From assembly GCA_947476535.1 (NCBI GenBank), contig CANJRC010000007.1, positions 1-64,000 on the forward strand: a stretch of DNA of 64,000 nucleotides. The letters run 5' to 3'. Position 1 is the stretch's first letter. The number at the start of each line of letters is the position of its first letter. Under the pieces are notes generated by a model. The model saw only the letters and a program-made list of their open reading frames with translations, did no database searches and was not told the origin of the DNA. Source of the stretch: Betaproteobacteria bacterium (lineage in GTDB: Bacteria; Pseudomonadota; Gammaproteobacteria; Burkholderiales; SG8-39). Below, piece after piece: positions 7,410 through 10,740 of this stretch. A program made the translations under genes and the position numbers.

Positions 7410-8903
7410 TTAGTGGTGGTAGGCGGACTCGCCGTGATAGGTCGTGTCCAGGCCTTCGCGCTCTTCTTCTTCGCTGACCCGCAGGCCGATGACGATGTCC
7501 ACGATCTTGAAGGCGATGAAGGCGACCACGCCGGACCAGACGAGCGCGGTGCCGACGGCCCAGAGCTGGCTCATGAACTGCGCGCCCATGTCGTATTCGC
7601 CGACCTTGTTGATGACGTAGTCGTAGACCCCTGCGCCGCCGAGCGACGGTGACGCGAAGATCGCGGTGCCGAGGGCGCCGACGATACCGCCGACGCCGTG
7701 CACGCCGAATACGTCCAGCGCGTCATCGGCCCCCAGCAGCTTCTTCAGGCTGTGCACCGCCCACAGGCACAGTCCACCGGCGATGGCGCCCAGAGCGATC
7801 GATCCCATCGGGCCGACGAAGCCGCAGGCTGGTGTGACCGCCACCAGGCCGGCAACCGCTCCCGAGGCCGCACCCACCATGCTGGGCTTGCCCTTGAAGA
7901 TCCACTCAAGAAAGGTCCAGGCCAGTGTTGCGGCAGCCGTGGCGACCAGCGTGTTGATGAATGCCAGTGCAGCGGTTCCCGTGGCTTCGAGGTTGGAGCC
8001 GACGTTGAAGCCGAACCAGCCCACCCACAGCAGGCAGGCGCCAACCATGGTCATGGTCACGCTGTGCGGAGTCATCGATTCCCGACCCAGGCCCAGGCGC
8101 TTGCCGAGTACGAAGGCACCCACCAGACCGGCAATACCCGCATTGATGTGCACCACCGTGCCGCCCGCAAAGTCGATGGCACCTTTCTGGAACAGGAACC
8201 CGGCGTGGCTGGCAGCCAGCTCAGCTGCTTTCGCGTCGGTGTAGGCGTCCGGGCCGTCCCAGTACCAGACCATGTGCGCCATCGGCAGGTACGAGAAGGT
8301 GAACCAGAGCACCATGAACAGCAGCACGGCCGAGAACTTGATGCGCTCGGCAAAGGCGCCGATGATCAGTGCCGGCGTGATGGCGGCAAAGGTCAGCTGG
8401 AAAGCGACGTAGATGTACTCGGGGATGTACTGCCCCTTGCTGAACGTCGCCACGTTGCTGTCAGGCGTGATGCCGGCCATGAACAGCTTGGAGAACCCGC
8501 CGAAGAACGCGTTGCCTTCGGTAAAGGCGATGCTGTAGCCGTAAATCACCCACAGTACCGCCAGCAGAGAGAAGGTGACGAAGGTCTGCATCAGGATGGA
8601 CAGCATGTTCTTGGAGCGGACGAGGCCGCCGTAGAACAGTGCCAGGCCGGGAATGGTCATCAAGATCACGAAGGCCGTGGCGACGATCATCCAGGCGGTG
8701 TCACCCTTGTCCACTTTTTGCGGAGGGGTGGCAGCAGCGGGTGTTGCTGCGGCTGCGGCAGGCGCAGCAGCCGGGGCTGCGGCAGCTGGAGCCGCCGCGG
8801 CAGGTGCCGCGGTTGCCGCCGGCTTGTCATCCGCAGCCCATGTCGGTGCCGCGAATGTCACGGCGCCAAAGACTGCAAGCAAAGCGAGTAGCTTTTTCAT
8901 CAT
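7410..8903 (-). CDS. amtB: Ammonium transporter with Ala/Pro-rich N-terminal extension
   Basis: GDTAWMIVATAFVILMTIPGLALFYGGLVRSKN, DFAGGTVVHINAGIAGLVGA, typical Amt. Confidence 0.95.
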   Translation of the reverse strand: MMKKLLALLAVFGAVTFAAPTWAADDKPAATAAPAAAAPAAAAPAAAPAAAAATPAAATPPQKVDKGDTAWMIVATAFVILMTIPGLALFYGGLVRSKNMLSILMQTFVTFSLLAVLWVIYGYSIAFTEGNAFFGGFSKLFMAGITPDSNVATFSKGQYIPEYIYVAFQLTFAAITPALIIGAFAERIKFSAVLLFMVLWFTFSYLPMAHMVWYWDGPDAYTDAKAAELAASHAGFLFQKGAIDFAGGTVVHINAGIAGLVGAFVLGKRLGLGRESMTPHSVTMTMVGACLLWVGWFGFNVGSNLEATGTAALAFINTLVATAAATLAWTFLEWIFKGKPSMVGAASGAVAGLVAVTPACGFVGPMGSIALGAIAGGLCLWAVHSLKKLLGADDALDVFGVHGVGGIVGALGTAIFASPSLGGAGVYDYVINKVGEYDMGAQFMSQLWAVGTALVWSGVVAFIAFKIVDIVIGLRVSEEEEREGLDTTYHGESAYHH

Positions 8904-8912
8904 GAGTCTCCC

Positions 8913-9260
<348 letters not shown>

Positions 9261-9274
9261 TTATGCTGATCCGG

Positions 9275-9309
9275 AAAAAACAAGAGGGCGGCTGTTTCTC
9301 GCCCCCTTG
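9275..9309 (-). terminator. Rho-independent terminator between porin gene and glnK
   Basis: Minus strand CAAGGGGGCG-AGAAACAGC-CGCCCTCTTG followed by TTTTTT; one mismatch in stem. Confidence 0.75.
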
Positions 9310-9321
9310 TTCTCGAGGCGG

Positions 9322-10245
9322 TTAGAAAGTCTTCTGGACGCCCAGTGTGAGCTGACCCTTGCCAATGTTGGTGCCGTACACGTTTTGGTAGATGTCACCG
9401 GTGACCGCGTTGTTGGTTACTTGCTTCTTGGCATTGGTGCTGGTAGCTGCGAGCGACCAGGTTGCGCCCATCCAGTCCTTGGTCACGCCGACCTTGTAAT
9501 CGGAGTAGCTGAACACGTTATTGTTGAGCGTGGTCGCGGCGCCGAAACCGAAGGCGAGCACGGGGGAGGTGCCCTTGTAGGTCTGTTTGCCGTAGTGAAG
9601 GCCGAGCGTGAAGCCGCTTTCACCCAAGGGAATCGCTGCGGACAGATCCAGATAGTTCGATCCCTTGGAATTCTTCACGCCGAAGGTGTCGCTGGTCGCC
9701 TGCGAATATTTCATCGTGAACCATTTCCAGCCGAGGGAGCCATAAAACTCCAGCGTGTCGGGCTTGGACATCAGGGTGGCCAGGTTTTCGTATTTGCCGG
9801 GGTAGTAGTATTTCAAGGCGCCGAGGTCATAGGAAATGTCATTGGCGAAGCTGCCCTTGTATCCGCCGTAGAAATCCCATTCCAGGCTGGCGGTATTGAA
9901 CTGATTGGCGGCGAACGGTGCGCCGGCACCACCAGGTGAACCCAGGCTTACCGGACCGGGCGCGGTGCCCTTGGGTGTGCCCATGTTCTGGTCCGTGTAC
10001 CAGCTGATGTTTGACCCCCATGTTCCAAGGTAGAAGCCGCTCGAATGCGAGTAGTCGAAACCACCCTGCAGGGCCGCCTTCTCGTTGGTCTGTGTCAGGC
10101 CGCGGAATATGTACTGGTTGAAAAGCCCGACATTCCCGGTGAATGTGTGGGGAGACACCGGTGCGGCATCGGCCGCACAGGCAACTTGCGCCATGGGAGC
10201 AGCCAGCACAGCTGCGACAGCGGAAGCGAGGAGAAGTTTCTTCAT
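9322..10245 (-). CDS. TorF-family putative outer-membrane porin
   Basis: Signal peptide MKKLLLASAVAAVLAAPMAQVACA; FTGNVGLFNQYIFRGLTQTNEKAALQGGFDYSHSSGFYLGTWGSNI; terminal aromatic (QKTF). Confidence 0.85.
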   Translation of the reverse strand: MKKLLLASAVAAVLAAPMAQVACAADAAPVSPHTFTGNVGLFNQYIFRGLTQTNEKAALQGGFDYSHSSGFYLGTWGSNISWYTDQNMGTPKGTAPGPVSLGSPGGAGAPFAANQFNTASLEWDFYGGYKGSFANDISYDLGALKYYYPGKYENLATLMSKPDTLEFYGSLGWKWFTMKYSQATSDTFGVKNSKGSNYLDLSAAIPLGESGFTLGLHYGKQTYKGTSPVLAFGFGAATTLNNNVFSYSDYKVGVTKDWMGATWSLAATSTNAKKQVTNNAVTGDIYQNVYGTNIGKGQLTLGVQKTF

Positions 10246-10311
10246 GGAGGCACCTTTCATGGTTAAAAATGAATGCCAGCCGAAAGTCCGGCGTAGCTTG
10301 GGTTGTTTAAG

Positions 10312-10327
10312 AGCATAGCCTGTGCCA
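10312..10327 (-). promoter_or_regulatory. Putative sigma54 (-24/-12) promoter
   Basis: Minus-strand TGGCACAGGCTATGCT: GG-N10-GC, one mismatch to TGGCACR-N4-TTGCW; ends 66 bp before the porin ATG. Confidence 0.7.
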
Positions 10328-10390
10328 GATATTCTTACCTATATAAAACAGATAGTTATGTTGAGTAACTGTCCCATGTGCAAGAGTTGC

Positions 10391-10436
10391 GCACCAATAA
10401 TGCGCGCTGTGGACATCGCTTGCACACATCTGGTGC
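10391..10436. promoter_or_regulatory. Two putative NtrC enhancer sites
   Basis: GCACC-AATAA-TGCGC (10391-10405) and GCACA-CATCT-GGTGC (10422-10436), compared with GCACC-N5-GGTGC; centres 31 bp apart, upstream of the -24/-12 element. Confidence 0.5.
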
Positions 10437-10500
10437 GTCAATTGGGTGCGTAAGCTTTGTAAAGGGATTAATGCAAAAAGCTGCGTGCTAGACTTTCGGT

Positions 10501-10740
10501 ATGGATCAACCGCGCTTTTTCGATGAACTGAATGCCCGTGTCAGCGAGCTGATTGCGGGTTCGCCCGCAAAGGATGTCGAAAAGAACCTCCGGGCCATGT
10601 TGTTGTCCTTTTTTTCCCGCCTGGAACTCGTCACGCGCGAGGAGTTCGACATTCAGGCCAAGGTCCTGGCCCGCACCCGCGAAAAGCTGACCGCGCTGGA
10701 AGCGCGCGTGGCCGAACTCGAGCGTCGCAATACCCCGTAG
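10501..10740 (+). CDS. ubiK: Ubiquinone biosynthesis accessory factor UbiK (BMFP/YqiC family)
   Basis: 79 aa, LRAMLLSFFSRLELVTREEFDIQAKVLARTREKLTALEARVAELE; upstream of comM. Confidence 0.85.
   Translation: MDQPRFFDELNARVSELIAGSPAKDVEKNLRAMLLSFFSRLELVTREEFDIQAKVLARTREKLTALEARVAELERRNTP

Follow-up and report, generated by a model that had tools for sequence, protein, structure and literature searches.

The stretch of DNA analysed here (the window), 64,000 nucleotides of contig CANJRC010000007.1 (G000:C7) in a draft genome of 4.1 Mb (its named relatives are mainly Betaproteobacteria), carries on its minus strand, in this order, genes for an outer-membrane porin of the Gcw_chp/TorF family, the PII signalling protein GlnK and the ammonium transporter AmtB, with ubiK and yifB divergent from them. 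These three genes very probably form one operon controlled by NtrC, integration host factor (IHF) and a sigma54 promoter. The core of this interpretation is not new, being already established for a relative, Herbaspirillum seropedicae. What is added here is a conserved IHF-type site with its geometry, the lack of any other sigma54 promoter for glnK-amtB, and an association of the porin family with urtA, a gene of the urea transporter. The features on which the argument is built are as follows.

10312 to 10327, minus strand: sigma54 (-24/-12) promoter TGGCACAGGCTATGCT, transcription start expected at about 10301; found without exception in the 98 nearer glnK-linked relatives whose upstream sequence is available.
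10346 to 10358, minus strand: IHF-type site TAACTATCTGTTT, centre about -50, a 7/9 match to YAANNNNTTGATW.
10390 to 10406, minus strand: NtrC-type site CGCGCATTATTGGTGCG, centre about -96; a site here in 59/92 relatives (shuffles 2.7).
10421 to 10437, minus strand: NtrC-type site CGCACCAGATGTGTGCA, centre about -127; 72/92 relatives (shuffles 2.4).
10434 to 10450, minus strand: additional, weaker NtrC-type site CGCACCCAATTGACGCA, centred near -140; seen again in a minority of relatives.
9322 to 10245, minus strand: Gcw_chp/TorF-family outer-membrane beta-barrel porin, probable NlmA counterpart (PF09694, E 1.3e-48; TIGR02001, E 2.4e-49).
8913 to 9251, minus strand: glnK, PII signalling protein (PF00543; NCBIfam PRK10665 over cut-off).
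7410 to 8903, minus strand: amtB, ammonium transporter (PF00909, E 1.5e-119; TIGR00836 over cut-off).

A preliminary description, made from the letters of the window, had placed a minus-strand sigma54 promoter at 10327-10312, NtrC sites at -96 and -127, and a further half-match beyond them; each was found where it had been placed. The GG-N10-GC core of the promoter lies in a TGGCACN5TTGCW context with one mismatch, an A replacing the first T of TTGC. For the window alone, an equally good promoter match would arise upstream with P = 0.015 by dinucleotide shuffles; for two NtrC sites of this quality spaced 30-33 bp apart P = 0.028, and for any single NtrC site scoring at least 7.5 P = 0.22. Evidence from the window alone is suggestive of the promoter and its NtrC sites, not conclusive. 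Across the genome, sites were sought by pattern searches, in which single patterns are not selective: the loose pattern TGGCACN6TGCW gave 26 matches against 22 for its backwards control, so a single genome match means little. It is conservation across relatives that leads us to regard the arrangement as real.

Conservation was followed through a first set of 29 loci, a second of 80 named ones, 92 regions less than 70% identical to one another, and a class-wide sample of 42 linked loci. Upstream regions were aligned by anchoring on the best -24/-12 site, which selects for a promoter, and promoter frequency was therefore judged against shuffles; the loci also share ancestry, so that conservation counts are not counts of independent events. 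A promoter score of at least 12 was reached in all of the nearer glnK-linked loci whose upstream sequence sufficed (98/98), compared with 6.6% of shuffled regions, and the class-wide sample has the promoter ahead of 38 of 42 glnK-linked porins. Both NtrC sites occur together in 53/92 non-redundant regions (shuffle mean 0.1), and where the spacing of the pair was measurable it was 31 bp in 42/60 cases and 32 bp in 12/60 (31-32 bp in 54/60). The -140 site overlaps the -127 site, one half-site being common to both.

Upstream dyad sites conserved in position, together with NtrC, NtrB and RpoN in the same genome, are among the hallmarks of an NtrC-activated sigma54 promoter, and these are present here. 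NtrC (680 bits, cut-off 559), NtrB and glnA are encoded in one locus, and two RpoN genes are found at G000:C5:65928-66395 and G000:C25:20057-20524. The genome has four strong sigma54 activators, NtrC and three others, and the window's NtrC sites are imperfect, so one of the other three enhancer-binding proteins might be imagined to activate the promoter instead. We regard this as very unlikely, as the sites match the NtrC half-site and keep their positions across relatives, the H. seropedicae operon is NtrC-dependent, and in the same genome glnA too has a sigma54 site accompanied by NtrC-like sites, one of this kind at -108.

The H. seropedicae operon, nlmA-glnK-amtB, shares with the window the order membrane protein, glnK, amtB, and both its NtrC dependence and its induction under nitrogen limitation are reported: in the passages describing it, amtB::lacZ expression is 21 times higher under nitrogen limitation, and NlmA takes its name from membrane extracts of nitrogen-limited cells (PMC3023670). 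The same passages describe no IHF site or conserved geometry (PMC3023670), in which the window set differs. Here too a membrane-protein gene, glnK and amtB follow one another with no further sigma54 promoter, and porin-glnK-amtB was intact in 29/30 of the loci examined first, the window counted, the remaining locus being interrupted by a contig end. The earlier proposal that the porin belongs to the nitrogen-limitation regulon thus draws support from the conserved NtrC/sigma54 arrangement and from the known NtrC dependence of the H. seropedicae operon (PMC3023670). An RNA-seq paper on Azoarcus reports induction of glnK-amtB, with no porin named in its main text.

Alignment of the first 29 loci brought out an AT-rich motif, spanning -55 to -43, which fits the IHF consensus YAANNNNTTGATW and which the preliminary description had missed. 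Matches of at least 7/9 stand at -49/-50 in 64/92 regions, against a shuffle mean of 2.9, and the second set of 80 loci repeated the NtrC and IHF pattern of the first. The motif lies between enhancer and promoter, as in IHF-assisted sigma54 promoters, with the window copy matching at 7/9; IHF alpha and beta are both encoded in the genome, and a role for IHF at this conserved site may be inferred. In Escherichia coli, the sigma54 promoter glnAp2 has a pair of NtrC sites some 32 bp from each other and needs no IHF site. The likeness to E. coli glnA drawn previously holds for the paired enhancer and fails at the conserved IHF-type site near -50; the E. coli NtrC sites also lie somewhat further upstream than the -96/-127 pair of the window. 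The combination of sigma54 site, putative NtrC pair and IHF site seen in the window was proposed for the glnA promoter of Xylella fastidiosa (PMC3224663), which stands upstream of glnA and not of a porin operon.

Downstream of the porin, the gap before glnK contains one further element.

9276 to 9314, minus strand: intercistronic hairpin with U-tract in the porin-glnK gap (-25.7 kcal/mol, z -3.5).

Does this hairpin act in all relatives as a genuine regulatory terminator, fixing the ratio of porin to glnK-amtB? The window hairpin is stable and is followed by a U run, and some relatives have long U tracts. Such a role throughout the family is nevertheless rather unlikely: a stable GC-rich hairpin occupies the gap in 69/85 loci, and at least five U in the next eight bases follow only 4 of the 69. 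The terminator with partial read-through envisaged for the window therefore remains a good candidate there and in some relatives, and is not the general rule. Because the hairpin is common, its U-rich tail is rare and the window has a U run, the element may be a recurrent message-end structure that possibly also terminates in the window's lineage. The preliminary description had allowed for a separate glnK promoter. As regards sigma54-type sites this was rejected, since none scoring at least 12 lies in the porin-glnK interval of 90 loci, the best score in the window being 8; glnK-amtB thus seem dependent on the porin promoter, although a sigma70 promoter within the porin gene is possible.

Together these observations suggest the following sequence of events. 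Under nitrogen limitation, phosphorylated NtrC would bind the paired -127/-96 sites, to which the -140 site may add, while IHF would introduce a bend near -50, and NtrC would contact sigma54-RNA polymerase at -24/-12 and open the single promoter. The single transcript would encode an NlmA-type Gcw_chp/TorF porin, GlnK and AmtB, with glnK-amtB reached by read-through past the hairpin, which probably raises the level of porin message. It would do so in the window's lineage by terminating part of the transcripts, and in other lineages more likely by protection or processing of mRNA ends. The porin may pass scarce small nitrogen solutes across the outer membrane, ammonium here and urea for copies adjacent to urtA.

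Several points weigh against this account. For the present organism it rests on sequence, conservation, gene order and regulator genes; the IHF site of the window itself is degenerate; and in the class-wide sample a recognizable NtrC site stands at the exact positions in only 24/42 linked loci. The identification of NlmA as a Gcw_chp protein draws on operon order and membrane location. Finally, the mature window porin has a net charge of +2 in a family that is mostly acidic (median -18 for glnK-linked members).

The porin scores well above curated cut-offs, with 166.5 bits to PF09694 (cut-off 24) and 168.1 bits to TIGR02001 (cut-off 47.15). An AlphaFold2 model of moderate confidence (mean predicted local distance difference test score, pLDDT, 73.5) is a beta-barrel, whose matches in PDB are mostly porins, including OmpG, KdgM and Tsx; template-modelling scores (TM-scores) are modest, which supports the fold class and not a substrate. 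The predicted barrel may form a channel. Residues E122, D124 and E166 are near-invariant in the family, in all groups alike. A cation-selective lumen formed by these acidic residues was considered and dropped, given their uniformity across groups and the positive net charge of the window porin. Two loci, L177 and L180, each have a single open frame of about 460 amino acids that encodes a double Gcw_chp porin. Pfam annotates the Gcw_chp/TorF family as of unknown function. The namesake of the NCBIfam model TIGR02001, 'TorF family putative porin', is Shewanella oneidensis TorF (SO4694), listed as a porin of the trimethylamine N-oxide (TMAO) reductase system (PMC5955497) and annotated with TMAO respiration, not nitrogen assimilation.

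Porin relatives away from glnK provide the new observation that sigma54 control is kept beside urtA or by a porin standing alone. Nine Gcw_chp copies adjoin urtA genes, identified as such by scores above the TIGR03407 cut-off at those positions: seven lie directly upstream on the same strand (L196, L200, L220, L231, L232, L241 and L263) and two are divergent (L215 and L227). All nine have a sigma54 score of at least 12.5, against a shuffle background of 3.4%. At L089, a porin alone ahead of a convergent gene (trpC-like by eye) retains the promoter and both NtrC sites. Most other copies away from glnK lack the module, and three Cupriavidus copies without an acceptable promoter serve as internal controls. 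In the tree, most urtA-linked porins fall within a supported group of which glnK-linked ones are also members, a pattern that fits duplication and re-pairing; deep branches are weak. GlnK-linked porins as one exclusive clade were rejected, tree labels being clustered but mixed. The urtA of the window's own genome (L272) has a sigma54-like site, TGGCACGACCTGTGCA, at G000:C118:7135-7150 shortly ahead of its start and NtrC-like sites upstream, and no Gcw_chp porin directly beside it. By eye, with no profile search, neighbours of other unlinked copies were judged to resemble betaine-binding proteins, alanine dehydrogenase and ureohydrolase, and tblastn found Amt relatives near some; we treat all of these as leads.

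Comparable by description to the urtA-linked porins is FmdC of Methylophilus methylotrophus, an outer-membrane porin encoded with fmdDEF, an ammonia-repressed high-affinity ATP-binding cassette transporter system for urea and amides (PMC10781810, a review). A literature search with few subscription papers within reach found none that connects Gcw_chp/TorF porins with either urtA or the regulation of nitrogen metabolism.

These copies bear on whether the porin takes part in nitrogen uptake at all. The regulation might instead serve glnK-amtB, the porin being a passenger or a general stress or structural outer-membrane protein; its substrate is a candidate only, and many other family members adjoin unrelated genes and lack the promoter. 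This reading is unlikely, for the porin comes first in the operon across the class, NtrC/sigma54 control is kept without glnK at L089, and sigma54 sites are kept beside urtA. The suggestion that the porin admits a nitrogen source is plausible and better supported now by the urtA-linked copies, and we consider a role in nitrogen uptake reasonably probable. Chances are about even for the broader proposal that Gcw_chp/TorF proteins are largely channels by which small nitrogen compounds cross the outer membrane, the glnK-linked copy belonging to the NtrC regulon with AmtB and others having been re-paired with urea-transporter or other nitrogen-compound genes, often under sigma54 control.

The regulatory region is bordered on its far side by a divergent gene.

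10501 to 10740, plus strand: ubiK, the border of the regulatory region (PF04380).

In most relatives among the first 30 loci ubiK (and yifB) are likewise divergent from the operon. A conserved sigma70-promoter-like stretch lies ahead of ubiK at 10470-10500 on the plus strand, and, with the NtrC sites immediately upstream of it, NtrC could also affect ubiK. At the other end, the porin start at 10245 (MKKLLL), implied by the layout first described, looks better than that at 10260 (the longest open reading frame). In the porin 5' leader, a small minus-strand hairpin at 10275-10292, with ATTCATTTTT after it, is a possible attenuator, retained in one close relative and absent in the next.

Work on ammonium uptake has dealt almost exclusively with the inner membrane. 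The presence of a conserved porin under nitrogen control in the same transcript implies that cells manage their outer membrane, too, during nitrogen scarcity, and it offers a testable function for a large family of unknown function. The near-fixed geometry of NtrC, IHF and sigma54 sites over many lineages is, in addition, a natural data set on enhancer looping.
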